NCBI RefSeq assembly: GCF_015864825.1
Contig: NZ_JADYWL010000005.1
Span: 1-64,000 of the forward strand
Length of the DNA stretch: 64,000 nt
Source of the DNA: Psychrobacter sp. NZS113
Lineage (GTDB): Bacteria > Pseudomonadota > Gammaproteobacteria > Pseudomonadales > Moraxellaceae
Direction of reading: 5' to 3'
Below are positions 10,817 through 57,344 of the stretch, piece after piece. Both the position numbers and the translations under genes were made by a program. Numbering within the stretch: the first letter of the stretch is position 1; each line of letters begins with the position of its first letter. A model generated the notes under the pieces. It did no database searches and had not been told where the DNA came from. It saw only the letters and a program-made list of their open reading frames with translations.

Positions 10817-11998
10817 ATGGACTATAACACTTCGCTAAACAAGACAGACCTTCTACCCTCTAATGCAGCCAATGAAATTTACCCATTAGCTGTATCCGCT
10901 AGAGAAGACACGGAAACCGCTAGAAAAATTGCACTGACCGTGGTCAAGCAGCTTTCAGAATTCGCATTGTTTAGAATGGGCTTGCCAAAATCACTGGGAG
11001 GGTGGGAAGGCAATCCTGTAGAAACCTTGAAAGTGTATGAGAGATTAGCCAGTGCTGAAGCTTCAGTAGCTTGGATCGTTTGGAATAACCATTTAGCGTG
11101 TACGTTTGGCAGGTTTTTAGACGAGTCTAGTATGAAAGAGATATACGGCGACTCCTCCCACGTTTATGCCAACTCAGCCCGCCCCGAGGGCGTTGCCACA
11201 GTGGTTGATAATGGTTATATGGTATCTGGTCGATGGACACTGGTATCCGGATGTGAATTGGCGGATTGGTTTGTGCTGCGCTGTTTGGTGGTCTCAGAAG
11301 GATCTCCAACCACTTTGGGGCCAGGAGCAAATCTAAAACTGTTTTTTATCCCAAAGACAGAAGTAGAAGTCATTGATACATGGCATGTTGGTGGATTGAA
11401 TGGCACAGGCAGTCACGACATAGTCATCAAAGATGCCTTTGTAAAAGAAACTTATGCTGTCAGTTTTGATAGCCCTGTCACCATCGATAATGCTTATAGT
11501 CGCCTGCCTATTGGTTGTATCAATGCAGCAGGTTGCGCTGCCATGTCTCTAGGTGTATTAAAAGCGGCAATGGACGACTTGATTGACATGTGTCTTGAGA
11601 GAGTCACGCCTGGTAAGAACCCAGATCTACGCGACCGCGCCACCGTACAAGCTACCATCGCAAAGAGTAAAACCCTATTAGCATCTAGGCGCTTACAGTT
11701 ACATAATAGCGTCGAGACATTATGGAACGAATCACAGCAACAGAACACCTTTACCAATGTGCAACTTGCGGATGTTTGGGCAGCATCATGTGAGGCTGCC
11801 AGAGAAGCTCGAGCGATGGTGTCTGAAATTTATGCGGTTGCTGGCACTGCTTCATTGTATAAACAACATAAAATAGAAAGAGCGCATAGAGACATTCATG
11901 CGATTTTGCAACACGGCATTGTGCAGCCTCATTGGATGAATCAAGCTGGCATGGCCTATGTTGGATTAACACCGAACGCTGCGATGTTTAGAGTATAG
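10817..11998 (+). CDS. Acyl-CoA-dehydrogenase-fold flavoprotein, probable group D monooxygenase
   Basis: A 393-residue protein with the acyl-CoA dehydrogenase fold. The C-terminal stretch Y-A-V-A-G-T-A-S-L-Y then I-E-R-A-H-R-D-I-H-A-I-L-Q-H resembles the HsaA, DszC and p-hydroxyphenylacetate hydroxylase oxygenase group rather than true acyl-CoA dehydrogenases, and no catalytic Glu context typical of the latter is evident. Such enzymes need a separate flavin reductase, and none is adjacent. I start at the ATG at 10817; an in-frame TTG at 10808 is less likely. Upstream DNA (10605-10816) is very AT-rich. The TAG stop lies inside a family A repeat. The substrate is unknown; an aromatic one is inference from context. 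Confidence 0.75.
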   Translation: MDYNTSLNKTDLLPSNAANEIYPLAVSAREDTETARKIALTVVKQLSEFALFRMGLPKSLGGWEGNPVETLKVYERLASAEASVAWIVWNNHLACTFGRFLDESSMKEIYGDSSHVYANSARPEGVATVVDNGYMVSGRWTLVSGCELADWFVLRCLVVSEGSPTTLGPGANLKLFFIPKTEVEVIDTWHVGGLNGTGSHDIVIKDAFVKETYAVSFDSPVTIDNAYSRLPIGCINAAGCAAMSLGVLKAAMDDLIDMCLERVTPGKNPDLRDRATVQATIAKSKTLLASRRLQLHNSVETLWNESQQQNTFTNVQLADVWAASCEAAREARAMVSEIYAVAGTASLYKQHKIERAHRDIHAILQHGIVQPHWMNQAGMAYVGLTPNAAMFRV

Positions 11999-12100
11999 TC
12001 AAACCCATACAAGTCCGCTACATTGTCATCCTCGCTAAACATACTAATGTATAGTTTGCACTCGGCTTCCTTGTATCGAAATTGTTTGAACTCAACTATA
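11994..12100 (+). repeat. Family A (Correia-like) repeat, divergent copy
   Basis: 107 bp beginning TATAGTC and ending CAACTATA. It shares the internal blocks CCTCGCT and GCACTCGGCTTCCTTGTAT with other copies. The TAG of the left end is the stop codon of the flavoprotein gene. Confidence 0.8.
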
Positions 12101-12127
12101 TGAATGTGACTTCTAGAATAGGTACTG

Positions 12128-12160
12128 GCGCTTGTACAACGTGAGGTACAAGCGCTTTTT
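12128..12160 (+). terminator. Terminator downstream of the flavoprotein gene
   Basis: Perfect 10-bp stem GCGCTTGTAC / GTACAAGCGC, eight-base loop, followed by TTTTT. Confidence 0.88.
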
Positions 12161-12213
12161 ATTGCTTAGAATTTACTGCTTAGTAATTTCGTAAAACACT
12201 TATTATGTACCCG

Positions 12214-12247
12214 TAAAAAAGCAAGACATTCGATGTCTTGCTTTTTT
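12214..12247. terminator. Bidirectional terminator between the flavoprotein and adhesin genes
   Basis: A 15-bp perfect stem AAAAAAGCAAGACAT / ATGTCTTGCTTTTTT with a three-base loop gives a T-run on both strands. It ends the adhesin transcript on the minus strand. Confidence 0.9.
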
Positions 12248-12281
12248 ATATTTGATTGACAATCATAATTGAGAGACCTCT

Positions 12282-15200
12282 TTAATCAAAATGGAAGCCT
12301 GCACCAATCGCGCCGCCTGCATTGCCCTGAGTATCTGCGGTACCATTTATCTTCATGACCCAACGACCATCATTTGATAACTTGGAGAAACCAACAGCAA
12401 CCGCACTTTCTCCATTATACGTACCGACACCACCACTAATCATTGACTTACCTGCAATATAAGCTTGCGGTAATGAAGACATCGCCATTGCTGCTGAAAT
12501 ACCAGCGTTAGCATTCTCTTCGACTTCACCAATTTTATAGCCTAGATCGCTCATATTGTTATTTAGTCTACTATCTAGCTCACTCAGTTGACTGTAGTTG
12601 ACCGCATCTGTCGCTTCGACACCATCAGCGACACCTGTTATGCGTTGATTACCAGCATATAGTCCTTGAGCAGTCATGCTTGGGCCATCTTGCATACTGA
12701 TGCCACTACTATTGATAACCGTTGTCCCCACTGTGACACTATCGACACTGATGTTACCGTTTAAATCAAACTTGATACTACTGCCCTCTGCGGTGGTGGT
12801 TATGTTGTTACCACCTGTAAAGCTCAGGACACTACCATCTCCGACTGGCTTATTTATATTAGCACCACTGTCTGCACCAAAATTGAGCCCAGCATCAAGC
12901 TTGTCCGTGTTGGTTTCAATGTTCGTGGTATTGGTCATAATATTGCTAGTGTTGGTAGCGATATTAGTTGTATTGGTCGTGATATTACTAGTGTTCGTAG
13001 CGATATTGGTTGTATTGGTGGAGATATTGCTAGTGTTAGTGGCAATGTTCGTGGTGTTGACTTGCACATTTTCATTGATTTCAATAGTGCCTTGTCTGAT
13101 AGAGGCAATCGCTCCATCTATATTGCCCTCACCTGTTCCACCGATATTACTGTTGGTGAACGTACCGCTCTCAGAATTGTAGACAGTGTCCCCACCGATA
13201 ATGCTACTGATACCACTTCCTTGTGCATACAGCTGACTCCCGTTGATGGCATCCTGACTTTCTGCCGAAACTTCACCATTTTGGACGTTGGTGATTCTGT
13301 TATTAGCGGCATCAATGCCACTTTTCGTGATGCTTGGACCTTCTGCTATGATCAGTCCATTGTCATTCATGGTGGTATCACCAGTGGTTACAGTATTCAA
13401 GTCTAAGTTGTCGTTGAGCTCAAATGAGACATCATTGCTGGTTGCTTCTTTAGAAACAATAATATTGCCATTTTTACTATTGAAGTCAACGGTGCCGCCA
13501 GGCCCCACATTGCTTACTGTATTACTGTTGCCTTGTGCACTAATATCCCAACCTTGATTGACAGTTTCTGTGACATCATTTAGCTGACTAACAGTGACAG
13601 CATCATCTAATGCGCTACCATCCGCTACATTGGTGATTCGATTACCACCGTTATTCAGACCACTGCTGCTTAATTTAACGGTACTACCGCCGAGGAAGCT
13701 GACACCAGCATTGTTCATGATGCTACTGCCTATTTGCATACTGCCAGTATCTCCGAGATCTAGCTGATTATTTAGCTTAACCTGAACGCCGGTCTCAGAA
13801 GCAACAGTAGTCAGGTTGCTATCACCTGTGACATTGATAGTATCACCTAATACAAATTGCTGATCATTGTCGCTATTGCCATCACCTATTTTGATACCTT
13901 TGGCAATTTCGTTATTGGTCGTTGTGAGCTGTGCAAAGTTGACAGCATCACTTGGTGCAATCCCTTCAGCGACTTTGATAATTCTATTATTACCATTATC
14001 AAGTCCTTCGGTACTAAGCGTAATGGTCTGATTAGGACCATCAGTGATAGTGATGCCAGCATTATTCACCACCGTACTTTCCATTCTCACGCTACCATTT
14101 TTGCCAAGCATTACATCTTCAGCCAATCTAACGTTTAGATTGCCTTCATCATCAGCGATGACACCGATATTGTTCTCAGTTAATTCTGTTGCGCCTCCTT
14201 GAATCGTCAATGTTTGACCTAATTTTCGATTGACGACAACATCGGTATCGTCTCCGGTAAAGTTCAGACCCAAGTCAACTGTGCTATTGGTTGCATTTAA
14301 CTGTCTAACATTGACAGCGTCTGTGTCTTCCTCACCGTTATCTACGTTTGTAATTTGATTGCCACCGTTATTCAGACCACTACTACTCAAGCTCACTGTA
14401 CTGCCACTAAGGAAACTCACACCAGCTGTGTTGAGCAGTGTATCGCCTGTAGTGACGCTAGTGAAAGCAACATCTTCTGCTGTAGCTACTTTAATACCGC
14501 CATCTTCAGCACTAAGAACGATGTTATCGCCTGTTAAAAAGTTGGCCGTGTTGTCAGTTTGATTAAGTGTTTTTACCTCAGCGCCATCTATTTGGGCAAT
14601 GACCGTCTGCATAGCACTGTCAGCTTTCACTAAGCTAGCTTTACTGGCTTCACTCAAGTCGACTGCATAATCAGTCGTGTTAGTCGCCATATCTTTGTCA
14701 CCTGCAGTAACTGTGACGGCTGTAGATCCTGCTGAGGTAGTCACGCCATTTGCATTGACGGTATAGACGTCTTGACCGTTCTGACCCGTAGATTTCATAA
14801 CATCAGCCACATTAGTACCTGCGGCAACCTCTGTTTTAGCAGCGGCAGATGAACTGTTAAGCTGACTAACAGTGACAGCATCATCTAATGCGCTACCATC
14901 CGCTACATTGGTGATTCGATTACCACCATTGTTAAGGCCATTGCTACTTAGTATAACCGTACTGCCACCAAGGAAACTCACACCAGCTGTGTCGAGCAGT
15001 GTATCGCCTGTAGTGACGCTAGTGAAAGCAACATCTTCTGCTGTAGCTACTTTAATACCACCGTCCTCAGCACTAAGAACGATGTTATCGCCTGTTAAAA
15101 AGTTGGCCGTGTTGTCAGTTTGATTAAGTGTTTTTACCTCAGCACCATCTATTTGAGCAATGACCGTTTGCATGGCACTGTCAGCTTTCACTAAGCTGGC

Positions 15201-17186
15201 TTTACTGGCTTCACTCAAGTCGACTGCATAGTCAGTCGTGTTAGTCGCCATATCTTTGTCACCTGCAGTAACTGTGACGGCTGTAGATCCTGCTGAGGTA
15301 GTCACGGCATTTGCATTGACTGTGTAGACGTCTTGACCTGTGATACCATCAGTTGAAAAGTCGACACTAGATATGTTGGTTCCTTGCACAACTTTGGTTC
15401 TGGCAGCAGCAGATGAACTGTTAAGCTGACTAACATTAACGGCATCATCTAATGCGCTACCATCCGCTACATTGGTGATTCGATTACCACCATTGTTAAG
15501 GCCATTGCTACTTAGTCTAACCGTACTGCCACCCAAGAAGCTGACACCACTACTGTTTATGATGCTATCGCCTATTTGCATACTGCCAGCATCCCCTAAG
15601 TCTAGCTGATTATTTAGCTTAACCTGGACGCCAGTCTCAGAAGCAATAGTAGTCAGGTTGCTATCACCTGTGACATTGATAGTATCACCCAATGCAAACT
15701 GCTGATCATTATCGCTATTGCCGTCACCTATTTTGATACCTTTGGCAATTTCGTTATTGATACCATTTTGCAGCCCCGTTAGCTGAGCCACGTTGACAGC
15801 GTCACTATTATTCGTACCCGCTGCAACGTTGACAATCTGACGGTTGCCACCCTCTGTACCAGTACCAACTGATACAGCGCCGAGTGTCACACTTTTTGTT
15901 GCAATAATGGCATTTTCATCAATGAGTAAAGTGCCTATTGGCACAAATCCAGTGGCTCCACCTGCGACATTAGCAATAGATTTTGATCCCAGTGCTACGC
16001 CATTTTGGGTTGCAGATTCAGCACCTGCACCAAGCGCCAACGCGCCTTTTTCAGTAGCGGAAGACGCCACACCAAATGCGGATGAAGCAGTTGCAGAAGC
16101 GCTAGCATGTGTACCTATCGCTGTCGCAAGATGACCTTCTGTACGGGCTTTGACACCAATTGCTATGGAGGCGGCACCACCGGATTCGGTATTTCCAGCA
16201 TAGGGATCGCTTAGATCCAATAAATCTCGACCAGCATATTCATTAAAGGCGGTATTCACTGTCCCACTATTCAAAGTGGTGTCAGTGATAGTACCATCGA
16301 GATTGTATATCGATGCTAGGTTTAGATCGTCTCCACCAATGGCAATAGAAGAGCCACCTCGTGAGACAACATTTGCGCCGATAGCAATAGACTGCTCACC
16401 ACTCGCTAGCGTTTGCTGCCCAGATTCCGAGCTACCAATCGCAATGGTTTGACTGCCAGTTGCTTTTGCGTTGCCGCCCATAGCTATGGCGTTATAGCCT
16501 GTGGCACCATCATTATTTTCGTTACCGCTAGCAGTTGAGTCTACGCTATAGTATTTGGTTTTATTAGCTGCAACTATATTGGTTAAGCTATTTAACTGCG
16601 AACCATTCACAGCCTCTTTACTCGTTGCTGTAATATCACCATCATCGACATTTATGATTTTATTATTGCCATTATTTAGCCCACTATGACCAAGCATGAC
16701 ATCATTGATTAGATTACTAGCTACTATCTTGATACCAGAGTTATCGACCAGCGTATCACCTGTTTTAAGACTACCATCAGCACCCAAATCGACCGTTTCA
16801 TCGAGCTTTATCGTAAGTGTTTTATCATGCTTGTTAGCCTCGACACTGATATTTCTGGTATTTGAGTCTCCCGTAACCGTCTCACCACCTTGTATGGTCA
16901 AAGTCTGATGATAAAACGGATTGGTATAAATCTCACCTGCTGGATCATCTCCGGCAAAATAGGTACCTACTGCATTTGCCTGCATGCCAAAACCAGCCGC
17001 AAGCAGCCCGAGCCCTATCGCGCTCAAGCGTAATGTAGGAATAGAAGATAGATTGGATGTTGTATTGATGGTAGCGTTAGCACTCACACTAGATTTAGAA
17101 GACTTACCACGCCCTTTCGCATACTCACCGACTGCGGTAAAGCAACTTAAGGCTTCATTCCAGATGACTTTATAAATACGGTTCAT
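12282..17186 (-). CDS. Trimeric autotransporter adhesin (YadA/Hia type)
   Basis: A 1634-residue type Vc secreted adhesin. Residues 1-30 (MNRIYKVIWNEAL...) form the extended signal peptide region typical of these proteins, with probable cleavage after M-Q-A-N-A (about 72). Residues about 230-430 hold YadA-like head repeats (A-I-A-M-G-G, S-I-A-I-G-A, A-L-A-L-G). The rest is neck and stalk: repeated G-L-N-N-G-G-N-R-I-T-N-V connectors with D-A-V-N-V-S-Q-L, a T-N-T-x-N-I heptad coiled coil near 1375-1425, and a C-terminal beta-barrel anchor (G-G-V-G-T-Y-N-G-E-S-A-V-A-V-G). The last residues are H-F-D rather than ending on the aromatic. It likely mediates attachment or biofilm formation. It stands alone between terminators. 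Confidence 0.95.
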   Translation of the reverse strand: MNRIYKVIWNEALSCFTAVGEYAKGRGKSSKSSVSANATINTTSNLSSIPTLRLSAIGLGLLAAGFGMQANAVGTYFAGDDPAGEIYTNPFYHQTLTIQGGETVTGDSNTRNISVEANKHDKTLTIKLDETVDLGADGSLKTGDTLVDNSGIKIVASNLINDVMLGHSGLNNGNNKIINVDDGDITATSKEAVNGSQLNSLTNIVAANKTKYYSVDSTASGNENNDGATGYNAIAMGGNAKATGSQTIAIGSSESGQQTLASGEQSIAIGANVVSRGGSSIAIGGDDLNLASIYNLDGTITDTTLNSGTVNTAFNEYAGRDLLDLSDPYAGNTESGGAASIAIGVKARTEGHLATAIGTHASASATASSAFGVASSATEKGALALGAGAESATQNGVALGSKSIANVAGGATGFVPIGTLLIDENAIIATKSVTLGAVSVGTGTEGGNRQIVNVAAGTNNSDAVNVAQLTGLQNGINNEIAKGIKIGDGNSDNDQQFALGDTINVTGDSNLTTIASETGVQVKLNNQLDLGDAGSMQIGDSIINSSGVSFLGGSTVRLSSNGLNNGGNRITNVADGSALDDAVNVSQLNSSSAAARTKVVQGTNISSVDFSTDGITGQDVYTVNANAVTTSAGSTAVTVTAGDKDMATNTTDYAVDLSEASKASLVKADSAMQTVIAQIDGAEVKTLNQTDNTANFLTGDNIVLSAEDGGIKVATAEDVAFTSVTTGDTLLDTAGVSFLGGSTVILSSNGLNNGGNRITNVADGSALDDAVTVSQLNSSSAAAKTEVAAGTNVADVMKSTGQNGQDVYTVNANGVTTSAGSTAVTVTAGDKDMATNTTDYAVDLSEASKASLVKADSAMQTVIAQIDGAEVKTLNQTDNTANFLTGDNIVLSAEDGGIKVATAEDVAFTSVTTGDTLLNTAGVSFLSGSTVSLSSSGLNNGGNQITNVDNGEEDTDAVNVRQLNATNSTVDLGLNFTGDDTDVVVNRKLGQTLTIQGGATELTENNIGVIADDEGNLNVRLAEDVMLGKNGSVRMESTVVNNAGITITDGPNQTITLSTEGLDNGNNRIIKVAEGIAPSDAVNFAQLTTTNNEIAKGIKIGDGNSDNDQQFVLGDTINVTGDSNLTTVASETGVQVKLNNQLDLGDTGSMQIGSSIMNNAGVSFLGGSTVKLSSSGLNNGGNRITNVADGSALDDAVTVSQLNDVTETVNQGWDISAQGNSNTVSNVGPGGTVDFNSKNGNIIVSKEATSNDVSFELNDNLDLNTVTTGDTTMNDNGLIIAEGPSITKSGIDAANNRITNVQNGEVSAESQDAINGSQLYAQGSGISSIIGGDTVYNSESGTFTNSNIGGTGEGNIDGAIASIRQGTIEINENVQVNTTNIATNTSNISTNTTNIATNTSNITTNTTNIATNTSNIMTNTTNIETNTDKLDAGLNFGADSGANINKPVGDGSVLSFTGGNNITTTAEGSSIKFDLNGNISVDSVTVGTTVINSSGISMQDGPSMTAQGLYAGNQRITGVADGVEATDAVNYSQLSELDSRLNNNMSDLGYKIGEVEENANAGISAAMAMSSLPQAYIAGKSMISGGVGTYNGESAVAVGFSKLSNDGRWVMKINGTADTQGNAGGAIGAGFHFD
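12906..13065 (-). repeat. In-frame tandem repeats coding the T-N-T-x-N-I coiled-coil stalk
   Basis: Imperfect 21-bp units grouped as a 42-bp period encode alternating N-I-A-T-N-T-S and N-I-T-T-N-T-T heptads of the adhesin stalk. All units stay in frame, so slippage would change stalk length without breaking the reading frame. Confidence 0.85.
14367..15488 (-). repeat. Tandem duplication of about 561 bp inside the adhesin gene
   Basis: Two successive units of about 187 codons each are nearly identical over long stretches; for example GAGCAGTGTATCGCCTGTAG recurs 561 bases apart. A single-codon length difference occurs near the V-Y-T-V-N-A-N segment. Part of the start of a third unit follows. 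Confidence 0.85.
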
Positions 17187-17604: not shown

Positions 17605-17696
17605 AGCCTAAATATGAAAAATACAAGTGCGAGCATTGTAGACAGCCAAACCAAGCAATTCTCGCACTGTATCCAAGTTATATAGGATTGACTATA
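17605..17696 (-). repeat. Probable truncated or degenerate family A repeat
   Basis: The right 28 bases read GTATCC-AAGTTATATAGG-ATTGACTATA, close to the end of the copy at 22601 read in reverse. The left part shares only ATACAAGTGCGAGCA with the copy at 57237, so the limits and status are uncertain. Confidence 0.45.
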
Positions 17697-20749: not shown

Positions 20750-20788
20750 GGTATGTAATAATTCACTCCGGAAAAGTGTTATTTTACC

Positions 20789-20832
20789 TAGGGCCTGTCA
20801 TCAATTAGCTCATTAATGCATTTCATGGTCTA
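20789..20832 (-). repeat. Fragment of repeat family B
   Basis: CTAGGGCCTGTCATCAATTAG followed by C-T-C-A-T-T-A-A-T-G-C-A-T-T-T matches the right end of the copy at 46930 read in reverse. Only this end is recognisable. Confidence 0.5.
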
Positions 20833-22600: not shown

Positions 22601-22707
22601 TATAGTCAATCCTCTATAAATTGGATACGGTGTCAGCCTCGCTCAGCCTACTATTTGTAGTACTTTCACTTTGCTTCCTGGTATCCAAATATATTGAACC
22701 AACTATA
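22601..22707 (+). repeat. Family A (Correia-like) repeat
   Basis: 107 bp running from TATAGTCAATCCTCTATAAA to TTGAACCAACTATA. The internal block CTACTATTTGTAGTAC is a near-palindrome. It fills most of the gap between the two lipoprotein genes and would be transcribed if they are co-expressed. Confidence 0.88.
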
Positions 22708-32628: not shown

Positions 32629-32638
32629 ATAACTTATC

Positions 32639-32940: not shown

Positions 32941-33048
32941 TATAGTCAATCCTCTATAAATTGGATACAGTGTCAGTCTCGCTTAGCCTACTAATTGTAG
33001 TACTTTCACTCGTCTTCCTTGTATCTAAATTATATTGAACCGACTATA
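32941..33048 (+). repeat. Family A (Correia-like) repeat
   Basis: 108 bp from TATAGTCAATCCTCTATAAA to TTGAACCGACTATA. It is nearly the same as the copy at 22601. It lies 128 bases after a family B copy and 110 bases upstream of cysE. Confidence 0.88.
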
Positions 33049-47164: not shown

Positions 47165-47271
47165 TATAGTCAATCCTCTATAAAAGAGCTACATCGTTAA
47201 CCTCACTTGAAATATCACATATACATCTGCGCTCGGTTGCCTTGTATTTCTTTTAAACTGAATCAACGATA
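47165..47271 (+). repeat. Family A (Correia-like) repeat
   Basis: 107 bp from TATAGTCAATCCTCTATAAA to GAATCAACGATA. The interior (CGTTAACCTCACTTGAAATA, CATCTGCGCTCGGTTGCC) matches the reverse complement of the copies at 50146 and 55170. It lies 60 bases after a family B copy. Confidence 0.85.
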
Positions 47272-47542
47272 ACATGATAATGCTATTACATAACTATTCG
47301 AATAAAAAATCGTAATCTTATTTCTTTCATCGCTTTTCAGAATATTTCTTTAAAAATGTTTACTAATTATCTAGCAAGGCATTCATTTTTTAGGCCAAAA
47401 CGTTTACAGTGAAACTTATGTAAAATCGGGCATTACTAAAATTATCTTGTTGTACTATAACCATCATTTTATTGTCTATAAATGATTGGCCTTTACCAAC
47501 GTAACATCACCTTAGTAACAAATATTAAAGTAAGGATCATTT

Positions 47543-48475: not shown

Positions 48476-48494
48476 CGCTAACATTATAGGCCAA

Positions 48495-48535
48495 TAAAAA
48501 GCACCCATGCTATCGATAGCATGGGTGCTTTTTTA
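48495..48535. terminator. Bidirectional terminator between the EamA and uracil permease genes
   Basis: A perfect stem AAAAAGCACCCATGCTATCG folds on itself as a palindrome with T-runs on both strands. Confidence 0.92.
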
Positions 48536-48586
48536 ACGTTAACAGTTTGGCTGAGATGTTCTATAAATATTCTAGAACTCAATCCA

Positions 48587-50035
48587 TTATTTGGCTAACG
48601 ACTTATTAGCAGCCTTCATCTCACCGCTTTGGTTAAATAATGCATTTAATACGATAGCTGCCAACGTAGCAGTACCGATACCGCCCAAATCAAAACCGCC
48701 TAAGTGCAAGCTGAAGTTACCAGTACCCATAATGACAGTCACTGCCGCAATGATCAGGTTGCTGTTTTTGCTAAAATCAATATGGTTGTCTAACCAGATT
48801 TTTACGCCTGCAAGCGCAATTAAGCCAAACACCACGATAGATGCGCCGCCCAATAATGCCGCTGGTATCGTCTGAATAATGGCACCAAACTTTGGTGATA
48901 GCCCAAGAATGATAGCAACTATACCAGCTACAACGAATATCGTCGTGCTATATACTTTAGTCACCGCCATAACGCCAATGTTTTCGGCATAAGTGGTCAC
49001 ACCTGTACCACCAAATCCTGCTGAAAAAGTCGTCGCTAAACCATCTGCAAAAAATGCGCGGCCCATATAAGGCGTCACACGAGCTTTGGTCATGCCTTCG
49101 ACGGCCTTAAAATGCCCTAAGTTTTCAGCAACCAAAATAAAGGCTACAGGCGCAATCAGAATAATGGCATTTTTATCAAAGCTAGGCGTATGAATGGTTG
49201 GGAGACCGAACCATGAAGCGGCTGCCACACTACTAAAATCAATCGGCGACCCAAATCCTAAGACGTTAGTCATCACAAAATAGGCAAGATACGATAGTAT
49301 CAGACCAACCAGCAGTAGCAAGCGACGCAACATGCCGCCTGTAAATACAGCCACACCACTAATCAATAGTACCGTCAATGTAGCCATCCAAGCGTCAAAC
49401 TGATTGCTAGATACCCCTTGAATAGTGACTGGTGCTAAATTAAGACCAATAATCATCACGATAGCACCAGTGACGATAGGTGGCATCAGACGCTCAATCC
49501 AGCCAGTGCCGGTTTTCATCACCAGCAGTCCAATCAACGCATAAATGATACCGCATGCCATAATGCCGCCCAAAGCGACACTTAAATTATCATTGAATCC
49601 TGCACCTGCATAGGCAGTAACAGCAATGACTGGACCGATGAAAGCAAAGCTTGATCCCAAGTAACTTGGCATGCGCCCGCCCGTAATTATGAAAAACATT
49701 ACGGTACAAATACCTGACATCAAAATAGCCAGATTGGGATCAAAACCCATTAACAATGGTGCCAGTACCGTTGCCCCAAACATTGCAAACGTATGCTGTA
49801 CACCTAGCAACACACTTTTTGATGGTGGCAGGTATTCATTGATACCAACTGGATCACGATCCAAATCACCCTGATAAGAGCGCCATGTTGGAAACCAACG
49901 GCCGTTTTCAAAATCTGGGTTTTTTGGATAACTCATGGCTGCTGAATCAATACCTGCAGCTTCTAGTGCGTTGTGAGCCGATTGCTCTTGGGCGCTACTT
50001 TCTGAATGCGAGGAAGGGTCTTTTTGAGATGGCAT
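48587..50035 (-). CDS. RutG-like uracil/pyrimidine permease (NCS2 family)
   Basis: A 482-residue nucleobase:cation symporter with about 14 helices. It resembles E. coli RutG: G-V-Q-H-T-F-A-M-F-G-A-T-V-L, F-I-I-T-G-G-R-M-P-S-Y-L-G-S-S, and the NCS2 binding-site motif A-E-N-L-G-H-F-K-A-V-E-G-M-T followed by G-V-T-T-Y-A-E-N-I-G-V-M. About 70 polar N-terminal residues precede the first helix and are longer than in RutG. No rut catabolic genes or upp are nearby, so general uracil or related base uptake is the likely role. TAGGATAAGC lies upstream of the ATG. Confidence 0.9.
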   Translation of the reverse strand: MPSQKDPSSHSESSAQEQSAHNALEAAGIDSAAMSYPKNPDFENGRWFPTWRSYQGDLDRDPVGINEYLPPSKSVLLGVQHTFAMFGATVLAPLLMGFDPNLAILMSGICTVMFFIITGGRMPSYLGSSFAFIGPVIAVTAYAGAGFNDNLSVALGGIMACGIIYALIGLLVMKTGTGWIERLMPPIVTGAIVMIIGLNLAPVTIQGVSSNQFDAWMATLTVLLISGVAVFTGGMLRRLLLLVGLILSYLAYFVMTNVLGFGSPIDFSSVAAASWFGLPTIHTPSFDKNAIILIAPVAFILVAENLGHFKAVEGMTKARVTPYMGRAFFADGLATTFSAGFGGTGVTTYAENIGVMAVTKVYSTTIFVVAGIVAIILGLSPKFGAIIQTIPAALLGGASIVVFGLIALAGVKIWLDNHIDFSKNSNLIIAAVTVIMGTGNFSLHLGGFDLGGIGTATLAAIVLNALFNQSGEMKAANKSLAK

Positions 50036-50145
50036 GCGCTTATCCTATGTGAGCTGAGCTAAAATAATAGGCGACAATAAATGATGGAATTAAAACTGAG
50101 TCAAATCGTGAATTCAATAGATAAAGAGATGTAGGTAAAGATGAA

Positions 50146-50252
50146 TATAGTCGATTCAATTTAAAAGTAGTACAAGACAACCGACTGCAGATGTATATCA
50201 AATACTTCAAGCGAGGTTAACGCTGTAATGCTTTTATAGTGGAATGACTATA
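50146..50252 (-). repeat. Family A (Correia-like) repeat
   Basis: 107 bp from TATAGTCGATTCAATTTAAA to TAGTGGAATGACTATA. It is nearly identical to the copy at 55170. The block TCAAGCGAGGTTAACGCTGTA resembles a conserved block of neisserial Correia elements. Confidence 0.9.
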
Positions 50253-50674
50253 GCAAGCTCCACATCCTTTCATTTATAATATGTCGCCCTAATTCATTCA
50301 TTTATGTTGCAATATAGCAAACCAAAAGTATTATTTGGTATGATGACCATGTTTTGCTAGATGTATCAAGTCGGATATGTTCTACTAAAAACGATTTCGG
50401 CCGTTATGTACTCAACGTACTTTATAGCGACAACCAACTTACAGGATGTTACACGGCAGTTGACTCCGAGCATGATAACGGAGTTTCAAAATAAATAAAA
50501 GTTATTATTCAATCACCAGTTGTACCCCTTTACGCTAAGACTTTCATAGGTGTTGCCCTGCACACGTTTGCTTTCGGTGCATAAGGGTGGTGGCTGTCTA
50601 TCATATTCTCAATAAAAGTGCCTAAAGCAATCAATACAACAGGCTAAAGCACTCAATACTTTTGGTAACTTATT
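50253..50674 (+). promoter_or_regulatory. Long untranslated region upstream of sdaA with local stem-loops
   Basis: 422 bp with no supported ORF. ACTCCG / CGGAGT at 50463-50484 and CCCT-GCAC / GTGC-AAGGG around 50556-50587 can form short stems. This length and structure could be a regulated leader, but it matches no riboswitch that I can recognise. Confidence 0.35.
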
Positions 50675-52108
50675 ATGATCAGTGTTTTTGATTTATTTAA
50701 AATCGGTATAGGACCATCAAGCTCACATACAGTCGGGCCGATGCTTGCTGCAAACCTGTTTTTGGCTTCATTAAGTAAGCATCAAGAACTGACAACGATT
50801 AAAACGATTGAAATCGAGCTTTATGGCTCTTTAGCTGCCACAGGCAAAGGACATGCCACCGATACAGCCATCTTGCTAGGTCTACTTGGACACGCTCCTA
50901 GTACCATTGATACACGGTTGACCAGTAGTTATTTATCGCCTATATTTTCTGACAAGACACTGAATATATCGGGTACTCACCTCATTAATTTTGATACAGA
51001 ACGTGACATTCATTGGTATGACGATACGGTGCTTCCTTATCATCCCAATGCATTGATGCTTCGAGCCATATCGATAGACGGTACGCATTATCAGCAGACT
51101 TATTACTCAGTCGGTGGCGGATTTGTGATTAATGAAGAAGATGCCACCAATCCAGATGAAGATCATGCCAGCCCAACGATTGATGTGGTTCCTTACCCGT
51201 TCAATAGTGCCGCAGAGCTTTTAGAGCAGTGCCGCAAGCATGATCTAAGCATCAGCGATCTGGTACTGGCCAATGAGTGTCACTATCGTAATCAAACAGA
51301 AGTATTTTCCTATTTAGATTCTATTTGGGCTTCTATGCAGGACTGCGTGACACGAGGGTGTCAAAATAGCGGCATATTACCTGGTGGCCTAGATGTGAAG
51401 CGTCGTGCTCAAGCGCTGCATCTACAACTGTGTGCTGAAAAAAACCAGCCAGTGACGAAAAACGATAAGCTTGCGGCGATGGATTGGATTGATCTGTATG
51501 CCCTAGCCGTCAATGAAGAAAATGCCAACGGCGGTAATGTTGTGACTGCTCCTACTAATGGTGCTGCAGGTATTATTCCTGCTGTCATGCATTATTACCG
51601 TGACTTCCTATCAACTTACAGCATAGAAGGCGCTCGCAAGTTTTTATTGAATGCTACTGCTATCGGTAGCTTAATCAAACAAAACGCTTCCATATCTGGT
51701 GCTGAGGTCGGCTGTCAAGGTGAAGTTGGCTCTGCTTGTGCGATGGCAGCATCAGCATTGGCTGAAATACTAGGCGGCGACCCTGCCAAATGTCTCAATG
51801 CCGCTGAAATTGGTATTGAGCACAATCTAGGTCTCACCTGCGACCCTGTGGGCGGACTAGTACAAGTACCTTGCATCGAGCGTAATGCGATGGGCGCGGT
51901 AAAAGCTGTGAATGCAGCACGCCTTGCCTGCCGTGGTAATGGGCAGCACTTCGTTTCTTTAGACAAAGTAATCGAAACGATGAAAGTAACAGGTGCTGAT
52001 ATGCTTGATAAATACAAAGAAACATCTCGTGGCGGACTTGCTGTCTATGCTGATAATCGCATTCCTACGGCAACTCGCGGCTTTACTGTTAATTACAGCC
52101 AATGTTAA
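50675..52108 (+). CDS. sdaA: L-serine ammonia-lyase (iron-sulfur type)
   Basis: A single-chain L-serine dehydratase, 477 residues, converting serine to pyruvate and ammonia. The N-terminal domain starts [21 protein letters not shown]. The catalytic domain carries the 4Fe-4S Cys residues: [14 protein letters not shown] (about 345-355), [32 protein letters not shown] is also diagnostic. No classical Shine-Dalgarno is seen before the ATG at 50675 (GGTAACTT). It is separated from the convergent lipoprotein gene by an exceptional palindromic terminator. Confidence 0.95.
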
Positions 52109-52128
52109 AGCTACTCAATAATTGATTA

Positions 52129-52186
52129 AAAAAAGACAATAAAAAAGGCCTCTAATTCTTTAGAGGCCTTTTTTATTGTCTTTTTT
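52129..52186. terminator. Bidirectional terminator with a 27-bp perfect stem
   Basis: Bases 52129-52155 are exactly complementary to 52160-52186 around a four-base loop; the GC core is GGCCTCT and both flanks are A/T-runs. Confidence 0.95.
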
Positions 52187-52225
52187 ATGGTGAGGGTATA
52201 AAACACTTATTAAACCAAGTAATTT

Positions 52226-52618
52226 TTACTCAGCAGTTTTTGAGATAACTTCATTCAAAATCCAAACTGGCTGTACGACGTTAGAACCTTCTTCAGTCAC
52301 AGCTTCTTGACGAATATCGAGCATATAGCGATAGTTTGGCTCATAGGTAAAGCCCTGGATATTACCGTTTAAAGTGGTGTAGTTTTTCTGATAAGTTTGA
52401 CGATACTGCAGGCACTGAGATTCAACCATAGAGCCATCAGTTGCGGTAAGGTCACATACGGCTTTGCGCGGTGCAACTTCTACTTCAAAACTTGGAATAT
52501 TGACCACTTTTACATCCATAGGCTGGCCTTCAACAACCATCGTACGTTCATTGTCCATAGTAGAACAACCAGAAAGTGCAAAAGTCGTCATCAATGCTGC
52601 AAGTGCAAGTTTTTTCAT
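52226..52618 (-). CDS. Small uncharacterised lipoprotein
   Basis: A 130-residue protein with lipoprotein signal and lipobox L-S-G-C (Cys18). The mature part (D-N-E-R-T-M-V-V-E-G-Q-P-M-D-V-K-V then R-K-A-V-C-D-L-T-A and C-L-Q-Y-R-Q-T-Y-Q-K-N-Y) appears to be a compact beta-rich domain with two further Cys that may form a disulfide. I do not recognise the family with certainty. GAGGG lies upstream of the ATG. It is transcribed alone and ends at the 27-bp palindromic terminator. Confidence 0.75.
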   Translation of the reverse strand: MKKLALAALMTTFALSGCSTMDNERTMVVEGQPMDVKVVNIPSFEVEVAPRKAVCDLTATDGSMVESQCLQYRQTYQKNYTTLNGNIQGFTYEPNYRYMLDIRQEAVTEEGSNVVQPVWILNEVISKTAE

Positions 52619-52980
52619 TATAAAACCCTCAGTGAGTTGTTATTAATTATAAGTAGCTTGTCTAAATTTATTTTTTTAACATTTAATATTTGTAATAGCT
52701 AATCTTTGTAACAGTAAGCACGGCAAAGTAGATGTGTTATTAACAAGTAAATCATCAAAGTTCAAAAGTCTTGCCATGTGTTATTTACTGAAATTAGTAT
52801 AAGTCGCAAGCTCTCCATCTCTCTATAACTGCTTTGTAAAGTAACGTCAGCTTTTGCAACTGATGTTAATGACACGTATTAACTAGTAGGGCTAATTGAT
52901 ACCGAGCAGGCGTCAGACAGCAAAAAGCCAGAATGATAGTCATTCTGGCTCAATCAACAATGTATTTACTTTAATAAATT
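52619..52980. other. Intergenic region between the small lipoprotein and argJ genes
   Basis: 362 bp, AT-rich, holding the lipoprotein promoter on the left and the argJ terminator on the right. I see no ORF with support and no member of either repeat family. Confidence 0.45.
52919..52950 (-). terminator. Terminator of argJ
   Basis: On the minus strand AGCCAGAATGA pairs with TCATTCTGGCT around a short loop and is followed by TTTTT. Confidence 0.88.
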
Positions 52981-54207
52981 CTAACTACGATAATCAGCAT
53001 TTATCTTAACGTAATCATAAGATAAGTCGCAGGTATACACCGTATCACTAGCATTGCCGCGTGCAAGATTGATATGAATAGTAATCTCAGGACGACTCAT
53101 GACTGTCTTGCCCGCCTCTTCCGTATAGCTAGGCGCAACACCACCACTTTGACAAATCATCACATCATCCAGATACACGTCGACTTGCTCTGTATCTAAA
53201 TCTTCGATACCCGCATAACCAACTGCCGCTAAGATACGACCCCAATTGGCATCGCTAGCGAAGAATGCAGTCTTTACGAGTGGTGAATGCGCCACTGCAT
53301 ATGCTACATCGCAGCATTCTTGCGTTGTCTGGCCACCAGTGACTTTCACTGTCATAAACTTGGTTGCACCCTCTCCATCACGCACGATTAATTGCGCCAA
53401 ACGCACAAATACTTCTGTCAACGCCGTAAATATTGACTGATAATGCGGATGTTCTGGGCTATCGATCACTTCTGAGCTAGCAGCGCCAGTGGCTATCAAT
53501 ACACAGCAGTCATTGGTAGAGGTATCACCATCGACAGTGATGCGGTTAAAAGATTGCTCATTGATGGCGCTTAGCATCTCTTGCAATAAGTCAGCAGCGA
53601 TATTGGCATCAGTTGCCACATAACCCAACATGGTCGCCATGTTCGGGCGTATCATGCCTGAGCCTTTTGACATACCTGTTATGTGATAACTGGTACCCGC
53701 TACATCAACTTTTTGGCTGGCAAGCTTAGGAATCGTATCAGTGGTACGAATACCATTGGCTGCTGCAAGCCAGTTATCAGCCCCAAGATTGGCAAGTGCA
53801 TTGTCTAAGCCTGCGATCACTGCGTCACTATTTAATGGCTCGCCAATGACACCTGTAGAAAATGGCAATACAGCATTGCTATCTACACCAGCTTTATGAG
53901 CCAGTGCAGCACAGATATCGACAGCACGACGCTTACCATCAGCGCCCGTCCCTGCATTGGCATTACCTGTATTGGTCACCAAATAGCGAGGGCTGGCTTT
54001 AGCGAAGTGTTCGCGCAATACACGCACAGGTGCAGCACAAAAGGTATTTTTGGTAGTAACAACCGCAGTGGTTGCATTATCCGCTATCTCTATGACGACT
54101 AAATCATCACGGTCTTTATAACGCACACCCGCTGCAGTCGCACTTAGCTTGATACCTTCGATAGGATAGATCGTATTGGGTACTTCAATATTTCCGACAG
54201 CCATCAT
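52981..54207 (-). CDS. argJ: Bifunctional glutamate N-acetyltransferase / amino-acid acetyltransferase
   Basis: ArgJ recycles the acetyl group from N-acetylornithine to glutamate in arginine synthesis. It has 408 residues from the ATG at 54207 (an adjacent ATG at 54204 is equally served by AAGGA). Self-cleavage occurs before the nucleophilic Thr in R-P-N-M-A-T-M-L-G-Y (about 190), and the family blocks T-N-T-G-N-A-N-A-G-T-G, F-S-T-G-V-I-G-E and T-V-D-G-D-T-S-T-N-D are all present. A longer frame to 54225 lacks support. It is the only arginine gene here; xthA lies upstream on the same strand. Confidence 0.95.
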   Translation of the reverse strand: MMAVGNIEVPNTIYPIEGIKLSATAAGVRYKDRDDLVVIEIADNATTAVVTTKNTFCAAPVRVLREHFAKASPRYLVTNTGNANAGTGADGKRRAVDICAALAHKAGVDSNAVLPFSTGVIGEPLNSDAVIAGLDNALANLGADNWLAAANGIRTTDTIPKLASQKVDVAGTSYHITGMSKGSGMIRPNMATMLGYVATDANIAADLLQEMLSAINEQSFNRITVDGDTSTNDCCVLIATGAASSEVIDSPEHPHYQSIFTALTEVFVRLAQLIVRDGEGATKFMTVKVTGGQTTQECCDVAYAVAHSPLVKTAFFASDANWGRILAAVGYAGIEDLDTEQVDVYLDDVMICQSGGVAPSYTEEAGKTVMSRPEITIHINLARGNASDTVYTCDLSYDYVKINADYRS

Positions 54208-54273
54208 TACATCCTTATTGTTCAAGTCTTATTATGATTTATAGACTATGTTTTGATAAATACTATAACAGTG

Positions 54274-55098
54274 CTACTGTTTTTTTAAGTCAAATGCCGA
54301 CCAAATTGGTGCATGGTCAGACGGTTTTTCCATAGCGCGCAGATCATAGCTGATACCTGCATCAACACATGCTTCAACTAGGTCTGCAGTACACAGAATA
54401 TGGTCGATACGTAGTCCGCGCTTAGGCTCGTCATTAAAACCGCGACTGCGGTAATCAAACCAGCTATAGAGCTCAGTGCTTTCTGGATAATGCAAACGAT
54501 ACGTATCTGTCAGCTCACGCGACATCAATGCACTATACCACTCACGCTCTTCTGGTAAAAATGAAGTCTTTCTGTTTTTGAGCCAGCGCTTTGCATTGAC
54601 TTCACCGATGCCGATATCGATATCTTCTGGAGCGATATTCATATCTCCCATAACCACGAGAGAGCGACCTTCTGCTTTTAATGTATCAATATAAGCCATT
54701 AAATCTGCATAATAAGCACGCTTCATCGGAAACTTGGTTGGATGGTCTTGGCTCTCTCCTTGCGGAAAATAGCCATTGAGCACATCAACTTCACGTCCTT
54801 CAAACTCATAGCGGGCATGAATAAAACGCTTTTGCGCTTCTTCCTCTTCACCCGGAAAGCCTTTTTGCACAAAAATAGGCGCCACTTTAGACAAGAGTGC
54901 AACACCATAATGCGCCTTTTGACCAAAATATTCTACGTGATAGCCCAAGCTTTCTATGTTCTCTAAGGGAAACTGCTCGTCATGTACTTTAGTTTCTTGC
55001 AGACCCATCACATCAGGATCGATGACGTCTCGCACAGCCTCAAGCTGATGTTGGCGAGCACGAATACCATTAATATTAAAACTGACAAAACGGGTCAT
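54274..55098 (-). CDS. xthA: Exodeoxyribonuclease III
   Basis: A 274-residue AP endonuclease/3'-5' exonuclease of the ExoIII type. Catalytic motifs are S-F-N-I-N-G-I-R-A-R at the N-terminus, L-Q-E-T-K-V near 34 (metal Glu), G-D-M-N-I-A-P near 150 (Asp and Asn), F-D-Y-R-S-R-G-F near 213, R-I-D-H-I-L near 231 and S-D-H-A-P at about 263 (catalytic His). Length is normal. AGGAT lies upstream of the ATG. It lies 66 bases upstream of argJ, so co-transcription is possible. Confidence 0.94.
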   Translation of the reverse strand: MTRFVSFNINGIRARQHQLEAVRDVIDPDVMGLQETKVHDEQFPLENIESLGYHVEYFGQKAHYGVALLSKVAPIFVQKGFPGEEEEAQKRFIHARYEFEGREVDVLNGYFPQGESQDHPTKFPMKRAYYADLMAYIDTLKAEGRSLVVMGDMNIAPEDIDIGIGEVNAKRWLKNRKTSFLPEEREWYSALMSRELTDTYRLHYPESTELYSWFDYRSRGFNDEPKRGLRIDHILCTADLVEACVDAGISYDLRAMEKPSDHAPIWSAFDLKKQ

Positions 55099-55169
55099 AA
55101 ATTATCCTATACTGATTGATGAAATACGGTGCTAATACAAATAGTTGAGAGGCAAAAGATAAAAACCAC

Positions 55170-55276
55170 TATAGTCGATTCAATTTAAAAGTAGTACAAG
55201 GCAACCGAGTGTCGATGTATATTGAATACTTCAAGCGAGGTTAACGCAGTAATATTTTTATAGTGGAATGACTATA
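55170..55276 (-). repeat. Family A (Correia-like) repeat
   Basis: 107 bp from TATAGTCGATTCAATTTAAA to TAGTGGAATGACTATA. It contains TACAAGGCAACCGAGTGTCGA, which resembles the GACAAGGCGACGAAGCCG block of Correia elements. Confidence 0.9.
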
Positions 55277-55438
55277 TGATAACAGACGGAGCGCAACCTA
55301 ACTATTGCGTGTCCTGATATCTTGAGCTAGAGTAGCTCTTCTTATTAATTGTTATTTCTATAATAGTTTTGAATGACACTTTATTATCGTCAAAACTCTA
55401 TTAAAAAACTGCATCGTTATTTATTCAAAAGGCAATAC

Positions 55439-55611
55439 TAGAGTGTGTCTTCATTTTAAAAACGGTGATAAAAATGAGATAAATTGCCGTCAAACAAGAA
55501 AATAGCGTAGATAATATCGGGATATTAACCAGCTATTTGACGATGTTTGGTAATATTTAGCCATTTCTAGCCCATTTAGATGACTATCAAGTGAATTGAA
55601 GACACGCCCTG
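55439..55611 (+). repeat. Family B repeat, divergent copy
   Basis: About 173 bp, with left end TAGAGTGTGTCTTCATTTT and right end GAATTGAAGACACGCCCT. It represents a second subtype shared with the degenerate copy at 3905 (CAGCTATTTGACGATGTTTG). Confidence 0.78.
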
Positions 55612-55670
55612 ACCTTTGTTAAGCAAAAACTTTAAACCATTTATACTGATAAAAAATACTGAGCATAATT

Positions 55671-56255
55671 ATGACAACGACTAATAGCAAAAACTCCACT
55701 GCAACATCAACGGGAACCAATACAATTACGCCATTGTTTGCTAAAGATTATAACGTCTATATTAACCATACTGATGCCGGCGGTATAGTCTACCATGCCA
55801 ATCATTTGGTGTTTTTTGAAAACTGCCGCCGTGATTGGTTTGGCCAACTTGGTTTAAATGGTTATTTCTTACAGACGGACAATGGTGATATACAGCATTT
55901 TGTCGTGAGTCAGGCAGACTTGCAATACAAACGAGCTATTCTCTTAGATGAAGTGATCAATGTGCGTGTAGACAAAGTCGAATTAAAACCTGCCAGTATG
56001 ATTTTCCATCAAAGCATCCATCGTCACATAGCAAATAGCGACGCTACTGGTAACATCAATACGAGCAACAGTGTATTGAGTAGCGCTAAAATCGTTATTG
56101 CCTGTGTACAAAACCAAGTTCAAGCAGAAGCTATATCTACTGATAAATCAGACGCTACCGCTGCGAGCAATGCGCCCATGCGTCCTATCCGTGTACCACA
56201 AAAATTACGTAGTGCTATCGAGCAAGCTATTAGCGAGCAAATGGGTAGTCAATAA
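55671..56255 (+). CDS. YbgC-type acyl-CoA thioesterase
   Basis: A 194-residue hotdog-fold thioesterase. The YbgC/4HBT motif is clear: Y-I-N-H-T-D-A-G-G-I-V-Y-H-A-N-H-L-V-F-F-E (about 30-50), with the catalytic Asp in H-T-D-A-G and conserved E-N-C-R-R. In many bacteria YbgC lies by tol-pal; here it does not. It has a Ser/Thr/Asn-rich N-terminal leader of about 20 residues and an insertion near 130-165 of low complexity. The ribosome site is weak (GAGC). The ABC gene fetA follows within 50 bases on the same strand. Confidence 0.85.
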   Translation: MTTTNSKNSTATSTGTNTITPLFAKDYNVYINHTDAGGIVYHANHLVFFENCRRDWFGQLGLNGYFLQTDNGDIQHFVVSQADLQYKRAILLDEVINVRVDKVELKPASMIFHQSIHRHIANSDATGNINTSNSVLSSAKIVIACVQNQVQAEAISTDKSDATAASNAPMRPIRVPQKLRSAIEQAISEQMGSQ

Positions 56256-56300
56256 TCCTAATAGATGAGCGTGCATCATAATAAGGGTGAGTTTGAAGTT

Positions 56301-57155
56301 ATGCTTACATTCAAAAATATTTGGGTACACAGCAGACGTACAGCGACCTCATTCTCTTCTGACAATGTATCTAACAATGCGTCTGATAATGTCACTAGCA
56401 ATGTCACTAGCGTTCAAACAAACCCCTTTATACCATTTAATATTTATCAAAAATGGTCTAAAAAACTAAGAAAAATAGTAAAGCCAGATCCTGGCTTACC
56501 CGCTCATGAGCGAGTATTGATAAATGGTGGGACTGGTACACTACTATCAGGACAAGTAACGGTACTGACAGGGTCTTCTGGTAGTGGGAAATCTGTGTTG
56601 TTACGGGTATTAGCAGGACTATTGCCAATGAGCAACGGTGACGTCTATCTCAATAATGAGGATGCATCAAACATCAATGCGCCTCAGAGTGTCCACGATA
56701 CATTGCCCACACGATGGCGCATGCAAGTTGCCCTACTCGCACAGCACCCGCAACTGCTAGAAGGCCGTGTCATTGATAACCTAAAAACGCCCTATCGCCT
56801 ACAAGCTCACCAGCATCGCAGTTTTGATATAGATTGGCATATCGCACAGCTCGAACACTTGCAACGGAACGCTGATTTTTTACAGCAAGATACCAATCAA
56901 TTATCAGGTGGTGAGCGCCAACTGGTCAATACCCTACGCCTTTTACAGTTAAATCCGCAGGTCTTATTACTAGATGAGCCTACAGCTGCTTTAGATATTG
57001 ACACTTCGGTACAGCTGGTACAGCTACTTATGAGATGGCTACAACTAGATACGCAGCGCACATTATTATGGGTCACTCATGATACGCAGGATATCATGCC
57101 ACTAGCCAATCATCATTGGCATATGCAAGCAGGCGTATTAACCGAAGTGTTTTAG
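56301..57155 (+). CDS. FetA-like ABC transporter ATP-binding protein
   Basis: An ABC ATPase of 284 residues. Walker A G-S-S-G-S-G-K-S, Q-loop region A-L-L-A-Q-H-P-Q, signature L-S-G-G-E-R-Q, Walker B V-L-L-L-D-E-P and the switch His W-V-T-H-D are present. The E. coli counterpart FetA/YbbL pairs with the FetB permease in iron export. ATG at 56301 has AAGGGTGAG upstream; the ATG at 56265 would add 12 residues. Between the first strand and Walker A is an unusual Ser/Asn/Val-rich insertion of about 50 residues. A family A repeat lies between this gene and the permease gene. Confidence 0.82.
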   Translation: MLTFKNIWVHSRRTATSFSSDNVSNNASDNVTSNVTSVQTNPFIPFNIYQKWSKKLRKIVKPDPGLPAHERVLINGGTGTLLSGQVTVLTGSSGSGKSVLLRVLAGLLPMSNGDVYLNNEDASNINAPQSVHDTLPTRWRMQVALLAQHPQLLEGRVIDNLKTPYRLQAHQHRSFDIDWHIAQLEHLQRNADFLQQDTNQLSGGERQLVNTLRLLQLNPQVLLLDEPTAALDIDTSVQLVQLLMRWLQLDTQRTLLWVTHDTQDIMPLANHHWHMQAGVLTEVF

Positions 57156-57236
57156 TACCGATATCTGATATCCAATCAACACCTCCCCTCATGTCATGTC
57201 TGAACTGACTGGCTCTACCTGATATTTATATTATAA

Positions 57237-57344
57237 TATAGTCGGTTCAATAGAATTTGGATACAAAAAAGCCGAGTGCAAGTGCTACAAGTAGTAGACT
57301 AAGCGAGACTGACACCGTATCCAATTTATAGAGGATTAACTATA
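57237..57344 (-). repeat. Family A (Correia-like) repeat between fetA and fetB
   Basis: 108 bp from TATAGTCGGTTCAATAGAAT to TATAGAGGATTAACTATA. It belongs to the subtype of the copies at 22601 and 32941 but in the opposite orientation. It ends 10 bases before the fetB ATG. Confidence 0.9.

Follow-up and report, generated by a model that had tools for sequence, protein, structure and literature searches.

Correia-like elements in the 64-kb window

The window, by which we mean the whole stretch of 64,000 nucleotides from Psychrobacter sp. NZS113 (Moraxellaceae) that was analysed, contains seven good copies of an element of 107-108 bp in both orientations and one degenerate copy (Table 1). The original prediction, made from the sequence alone, had likened these elements to the Correia elements (CREE) of Neisseria; its seven copies were all found at their positions, and the degenerate copy that it placed near 17605 is real, surviving as a remnant. 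Direct and inverted repeat searches connect the seven copies; a profile built from them recovers each one in full by construction, and the nhmmer E-values for those seven are not independent. With the strand defined by a conserved core (see below), three good copies lie on the plus strand and four on the minus strand. The ends had been given as TATAGTC...GACTATA, which agrees with the ACTATA end on the core strand in all seven copies and with a TATAGTY start in six, the start of the 47165 copy being TATCGTT. Rather than the two subtypes proposed, three subfamilies are present in the window and four in the genome.

Table 1. Element copies and related features of the window (strand as defined by the core).
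Feature	Position	Strand	Basis and context
Element copy, subfamily III	11994..12100	-	Profile match; intergenic, between acyl-CoA dehydrogenase-like gene and YadA-type autotransporter gene
Degenerate copy, recognisable in its 3' two thirds only	17624..17696	+	E 1.4e-4, profile positions 37-108
Element copy, subfamily II	22601..22707	-	Profile match and clustering
Element copy, subfamily II	32941..33048	-	Intergenic, between SpoU-type methylase gene and serine acetyltransferase-like gene
Element copy, subfamily I, left end TATCGTT	47165..47271	-	Profile match and clustering
Element copy, subfamily I (assigned by alignment)	50146..50252	+	Intergenic, between permease gene and serine dehydratase gene; site occupied in sister genome G017
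Element copy, subfamily I (assigned by alignment)	55170..55276	+	Site occupied in G017; spacing 104 bp less in nine other relatives
Element copy, subfamily II	57237..57344	+	No copy at this site in 20/20 relatives; G017 keeps single TA
Unoccupied TA	54264..54265	.	Copy in G017 (L337 7387-7494); diverged copy in L348-L352; window without copy
Conserved core hairpin, example (model R2)	55191..55255	+	Within the 55170 copy; IS630-like arms outside the core

The family across the genome

Using BLAST with one window copy we obtained at least 40 matches in the genome with 83-100% identity (40 of 109 candidates scored, every one of them a match). R1, a covariance model of 26 copies from the genus of the window without any Neisseria row (alignment A2), gave at least 149 matches, each place being counted once (150 of 1835 candidates scored, the last few being weak). 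Because of these 40 and 149 matches the family cannot be a product of chance. Counting in relatives, which the original prediction had proposed together with the genome-wide count, revealed that 101 of the 249 genomes in the taxonomic family of the window, Moraxellaceae (own genome included), have R1 matches, spread over 4 of 16 genera; one genome of another genus has 146.

We then examined 128 distinct copies, drawn from 33 loci, 80 fetched stretches and the window, leaving out hits of about 90 profile positions or fewer and repeat places. Their length is 107 or 108 bp in 120 cases and none has the long form. Clustering separated them into four subfamilies of 62, 26, 21 and 16 copies (three copies unplaced) with the consensus ends TATAGTCGATTCAA, TATAGTCGGTTCAA, TATAGTTGAATTCA and TATAGTCAAAGAAN, and the identity to the nearest neighbour reaches 0.991 at most, its median being 0.925. 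TA stands at both start and end in 101/128 copies, the left end reads TATAGT[CTG] in at least 93 and the right end TATAGT[CT] in at least 88, and the termini form imperfect inverted repeats of about 24 bp, in which 2169 of 3064 ungapped arm cells are Watson-Crick pairs. According to a simple caller of open reading frames (ORFs) of at least 80 aa, 118 of the 123 placeable copies lie between ORFs and five overlap one, five more being located at locus edges. Where the flanking genes are co-directional the core strand has the same sense in 35 cases and the opposite sense in 27.

The search for integration host factor (IHF) sites suggested by the original prediction was negative, as WATCAANNNNTTR, which we take to be the IHF consensus, occurs in 0/128 copies. 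A consensus promoter scan of 46900-57600 gave 28 against a mean of 30.8, i.e. no promoter excess; the TATAGT ends could serve as -10 boxes. Rfam gave no match at gathering score in the window and, at E<=0.5, three sub-threshold matches on 18 loci, none of them in a core: mir-2968 (L159 1360-1488, E 0.5) touches an element but stays clear of the core, and Flavo-1 (L049) and PyrR210 (L165) were rejected as they lie outside the elements. Finally, blastn produced no match in plasmids and phages with a window element and the L162 element, and none in plasmids with the L131 element.

Empty sites and mobility

To compare element sites among relatives we searched 100 genomes of the genus (own genome included) for the ABC-transporter gene at 56265-57155 as anchor, located it in 63 and inspected 20 syntenic stretches. 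At 57237 all 20 relatives lack a profile match and their spacing is 70-122 bp shorter, and in G017, which is about 90% identical, the flanks join at a single TA. As the copy is absent from 20 relatives and G017 retains the single TA, the 57237 copy is an insertion in the lineage of the window accompanied by TA duplication. The empty site with a single TA that the original prediction had proposed to look for thus exists, and the elements do not occupy identical positions in all relatives. The sites at 50146 and 55170 are filled in G017, and the spacing is 99 and 104 bp shorter, respectively, in nine relatives (L338-L346) that look closely akin to one another; some other syntenic stretches did not resolve.

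A different picture emerged at 54264, which is occupied in G017 but reads as a single TA in the window; the two alleles differ by one element and one TA. A diverged copy stands at this site in five relatives that are more distant (L348-L352), and an unrelated-looking stretch of 56-90 bp in nine others. Since the five more distant relatives possess this diverged copy, the G017 copy is probably old, and precise loss or allele replacement in the lineage of the window appears likelier than new insertion in G017; this lineage seems either to have lost the copy or to have lacked it all along. For the same reason we dropped two reciprocal insertions between the window and G017 as an explanation.

The elements combine terminal inverted repeats, a duplicated TA target with an empty site and, in other genomes of the genus, an autonomous element with the same ends, and are thus miniature inverted-repeat transposable elements (MITEs).

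IS630 elements as candidate mobilisers

A search with the IS630-type transposase domain PF13358 yielded matches in 18 of 34 genomes. Several IS630 elements of the genus, about 909-920 bp long, carry TATAGTCARTYC-type ends. When 30 terminal positions are compared with the 50146 copy, L074 has 26 in common with its right end and L082 25 with its left end, as against 21/30 for the best ends of Neisseriaceae insertion sequences (IS). The L074 transposase is named IS630 by NCBIfam NF033545 above the cut-off, as is L318, with L305 below it, and its nearest plasmid match is on a Psychrobacter plasmid (74%). Given this similarity of their ends to IS630 elements found elsewhere in the genus (up to 26/30) and their TA target, the window elements are best read as derived from IS630, i.e. 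as IS630-type MITEs with a likely IS630 partner. Hence, an IS630/Tc1-like transposase with matching ends, as sought by the original prediction, is encoded elsewhere in the genus but was not seen with PF13358 at E<=1e-8 in the assembly of the window itself.

For CREE, a passage of PMC2649163 states that the mobilising mechanism had not been determined. In the family of Neisseria elongata PF13358 matched 25/83 genomes. The two sides of Neisseriaceae IS of about 905 bp read TATAGTMAATTAAAA...TAGGACA and ...TRGTACA, respectively, in parallel to the CREE ends ...CAGGACA and ...CAGTACG, and the best IS end agrees with CREE in 22/30 positions for Neisseriaceae vs 18/30 for the genus of the window. 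Neisseriaceae IS630 may therefore be considered a candidate mobiliser of CREE. The IS630 transposases, one per host side being compared, are 34% identical, and in a tree of 44 IS630 transposase pieces, whose long branches leave the deeper order unsure, those of the genus with TATAGT ends and those of the N. elongata type fall into separate groups.

Two individual loci deserve mention. In Neisseria viridiae (L306), where an IS630 gene is incomplete, the TATAGTCAATTAAAAAC end next to this gene is separated by 55 bp from a CREE-type end. In L318 (genome G663) the IS630-type ends TATAGTGAATTAA and TATAGTGGATTAA, the latter being identical to the CREE start, are 1473 bp apart, possibly as a composite.

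Relation to Correia elements

As real CREE we used copies in viral contigs matching published patterns and in named Neisseria records among the matches listed. After removal of 15 bp from each side, five of the seven window copies aligned with CREE better than 1000/1000 dinucleotide shuffles, the 57237 copy better than all but one and the 11994 copy better than all but seven. Reverse-complement alignments of the trimmed copies scored lower, yet were still reached by few shuffles (0 to 51 of 1000). Identity of the window copies to CREE amounts to 63-74 positions among 109-113 aligned columns. Moreover, R1 detected CREE in 11 of 12 CREE-bearing loci (seven named Neisseria records and five viral contigs) with E 3e-12 to 1.5e-8, missing the CREE in L185 that is cut by the contig end. 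Running a trimmed profile of the 128 copies on 80 Neisseria loci resulted in 22 matches at E<=1e-3 and 71 at E<=10, vs 0 and 4 in the same loci reversed. Shuffles, R1 and trimmed profile thus all indicate that the likeness to Correia elements extends beyond the TATAG or TA-rich ends.

The part in common with CREE is the central hairpin core, the arms being different and closest to local IS630 ends. Compared with the 104-108-bp form of CREE/NEMIS, the elements have the same length, TA target, TATAG ends, high copy number, and core sequence and fold, and their length falls within the CREE classes of 104-108 or 153-157 bp. In contrast, CREE arms start with TATAG[CT]GGATTAA..., those of the window family with TATAGTCGATTCAA... 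or one of three other types, and none of the four subfamily consensus ends is the 26-bp Correia repeat (end patterns as printed in a passage of PMC2649163). CREE also occur in a long form with a 50-bp insert, which is the form that has an IHF site; neither insert nor IHF consensus was seen in the 128 copies, and the host group differs. A Neisseria-type element in a gammaproteobacterium, as envisaged originally, describes the homologous core but not the arms, which are nearer to local IS630, nor probably the mover, as one IS630 transposase of each host side is 34% identical to the other, and the core itself is distributed more widely. We file the window elements as a new family of IS630-type MITEs that is Correia-like in its core and lacks the Correia repeat at its ends.

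The core hairpin in other taxa

The core is an imperfect hairpin of about 55-60 nt in which the internal loops are conserved (CAAGGC...GCAG...CAAG...AACGCCG). Applied to 368 other genomes of the class, R2, a core model of 19 sequences of which three are CREE (alignment A3), matched 20, and in a phylum draw of 397 other genomes, which overlaps the class draw, it matched 33; 17 of the latter do not belong to the class, 16 of these coming from a single family and mostly with weak E. Many copies in other taxa bear arms of 15-25 bp with their own sequence. In three genomes (G144, G065, G062) the core is retained and the arms examined are of other sequence (non-TATAG), still largely complementary. 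Some cores lie within elements 270-300 bp or so in length, whose terminal repeats differ and whose flanks, by eye, fit a TA duplication; the second hairpin of these elements looks by eye like a core on the opposite strand, which we do not claim as R2 finds none at E<=5.

An alignment of 56 cores has standard pairs in 92.7% of paired cells vs 68.8% after shuffling and 22-35% after sliding, and its covariation score is 0.664 vs 0.223. In the 26 rows outside the seed 86.7% of the cells are Watson-Crick pairs and 6.2% G-T, and the unpaired core positions are conserved in taxa outside the seed as well. Outside the model, the arms of 40/56 copies are above the 95th percentile obtained with mismatched arm pairs, and four window copies are among the 16 that are not. 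These data suggest one widespread folded module that would be carried by many different small mobile elements.

Some individual loci stand out. Genome G819, a 1.8 Mb genome of the class, contains ten core matches, and the one inspected (L437) is a full CREE with perfect arms. Three loci of the same order with one or two cores per genome (L156, L445, L447; core at about 1501-1567) have the core next to a PhoU gene (L156) or an ABC-transporter gene (L445, L447), on the strand opposite to the neighbouring gene. It is possibly a fixed hairpin between pstB and phoU, the transporter gene being presumably pstB-like; a literature search for pstB-phoU stem-loops found no paper. In three further loci (L438, L440, L158) one arm bears a small side hairpin (AGCGAAGCG or TCGAAGA), which resembles very stable DNA mini-hairpins.

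Strand asymmetry of mismatches

Mismatches in the arms are unevenly distributed when read on the core strand. In the 128 copies of the own genome, which are related, we counted 350 G-T and 90 A-C mismatches, and in 46 of 47 other loci (one weak-arm locus dropped, some loci being related) 63 G-T vs 21 A-C, or 71 vs 28 for arms and core together. By locus, G-T is in excess in 27 and A-C in five, with 14 ties. RNA of the core strand is predicted to be the more stable one in 40/46 loci. The excess of G-T over A-C hints at selection on the fold of this strand, as RNA or single-stranded DNA, which would be its simplest reading.

In G029, a closed relative numbered from dnaA (base 1), 42 of 61 copies have the core strand in the sense opposite to that assumed for the replication fork (42 vs 19), with p 0.0016 to 0.018 over three assumed terminus positions; the 61 copies derive from 72 matches after leaving out 11 opposite-strand doubles, three abutting pairs are counted, and the terminus is assumed near mid-contig. 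G124 was left out of this count since none of the first ORFs of its contig could be recognised as dnaA.

Proposed explanation and alternatives

With good confidence we interpret the elements as IS630-type MITEs that insert at TA, have IS630-like ends as arms and contain a core that is homologous to the CREE core and belongs to a phylum-wide module. This builds directly on the observed copy number, TA duplication, lineage-specific insertion, IS630 end likeness, CREE core homology, covariation and G-T bias. Non-coding units of about 105 bp would insert at TA, duplicating the target, and a transposase of the IS630 family, recognising the outer 28 bp or so in trans, would most likely move them by binding and cutting the element ends; for this mover we rely on the TA target and on the likeness between the arms and IS630 ends from other species of the genus. 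In most lineages examined the core hairpin is joined to complementary arms of that lineage's own, and its fold may work as RNA or single-stranded DNA, aiding spread or tolerance of the element, possibly as a substrate of an RNase III-type enzyme or as a protein-binding hairpin.

Several points weigh against this interpretation. At E<=1e-8 PF13358 finds nothing in the 56 contigs of the own assembly, so that no mobiliser was seen there; IS copies often fall in assembly gaps. The end agreements with IS630 are raw counts over 30 positions. Mobility is deduced from genome comparison: the 54264 site probably provides no independent insertion, and the 47165 site in G017 differs by more than clean absence. 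As to the fold, two of the five measures taken are unexceptional, double-change pairs numbering 15 vs 13.3 (reached by 41/500 shuffles) and pair types 47 vs 44.3 (69/500), and the 56-core alignment is fitted to its own model and has partly related rows. The G-T cells are not independent either, and a strand-specific mutation bias could mimic their excess. Lastly, the near-random orientation of the core to genes does not favour a need to sit in host transcripts.

The core might instead be a functional RNA or DNA element of the host, e.g. an mRNA-stabilising or RNase III-cleaved hairpin, that is repeatedly captured by mobile elements. The copies with non-TATAG arms in G144, G065 and G062, the cores beside an ABC-transporter or PhoU gene in three loci of one order and the G-T bias would all agree with such an origin, as would the action of RNase III on CREE hairpin RNA (passages of PMC2649163 and PMC10969869). 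We nevertheless consider it unlikely, since the elements detailed in other taxa have terminal repeats and, by eye, TA flanks, and since the window copies are mobile.

It is less probable still that the fold acts as single-stranded DNA during replication, i.e. as a lagging-strand hairpin that serves transposition or the tolerance of long palindromes. The fork bias in G029 points in this direction and G-T pairs are tolerated in DNA, too, but the bias stems from one genome, with abutting pairs counted and the terminus assumed, and IS630/Tc1 elements move as double-stranded DNA.

Convergence of two IS630-type palindrome families at TA, with a resemblance due to similar ends and generic hairpin composition, is very unlikely: Neisseriaceae and the genus of the window do both own IS630 elements with TATAGT ends, and reverse-complement interiors also beat most shuffles, but trimmed interiors align better in the forward sense (0/1000 for 5/7 copies), the trimmed profile finds 22 matches vs none in reversed loci, R1 detects CREE at 3e-12 without Neisseria rows, and unpaired core positions are kept outside the seed.

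Finally, recent horizontal transfer of a Correia element between Neisseria and the family of the window in either direction, followed by spread, would explain the common length class and core, and both host groups include animal-associated bacteria, but it is the least credible alternative in view of only 63-74 identities with CREE, four diverged subfamilies within one genome, matches in 101/249 genomes and 4/16 genera of the family, arms nearer to local IS630 and a core that is more widespread than both groups.

Returning to IS630-type MITEs with a shared core, one may go further and regard Correia elements as a local branch of a phylum-wide family of mobile structured modules: a conserved hairpin under selection on one strand, as RNA or single-stranded DNA, would move among TA-targeting MITE families that are otherwise unrelated, taking host transposon ends as arms, and this hairpin would be the shared engine of their success by binding a conserved host or transposition factor, the terminal repeats being replaceable. 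We offer this extension tentatively, holding it to be somewhat short of an even bet.

Known systems and significance

CREE are described as unique to Neisseria in a passage of PMC5039591. Literature searches combining Correia elements with Psychrobacter, Moraxella, IS630 and other genera brought up, among the titles and abstract openings listed, no report of the window elements or of the shared core. Correia elements shape gene regulation in Neisseria. The present analysis adds relatives outside that genus, candidate IS630 partners in both groups and a conserved core that sets a second function, as yet unexplained, apart from the mobile ends, and it makes the question why elements of this type keep their core directly testable.

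IS630-family IS with TATAGT ends share the terminal 28 bp or so and the TA target with the window elements; they differ in being about 905-920 bp long with a transposase, and no core was noticed in the end sequences inspected. The pneumococcal repeat RUP has IS630-Spn1 as parent element. Likened by description only, RUP is a 107-bp repeat with TA at its termini (passage of PMC2229807) and QMITE1 of Coxiella combines variable ends with a conserved core (passage of PMC5896051). MITEAba12 of Acinetobacter and Moraxella osloensis (111-114 bp) is also a MITE in Moraxellaceae, but has ISAba12-type ends and 9-bp duplications (passage of PMC6382973).

Other features of the window

A further repeat of 168 nt is present at 32638-32805 and 46929-47096 (89% alike) and, in part and inverted, near 20787-20831; it lies close to two element copies, at distances of 68 and 135 bp. 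A large YadA-type trimeric autotransporter gene with internal repeats extends over 12282-17186, and 58610-60307 and 60888-62588 form a tandem ORF pair that is 80-84% alike over 300-nt pieces, the first encoding an AMP-binding enzyme.

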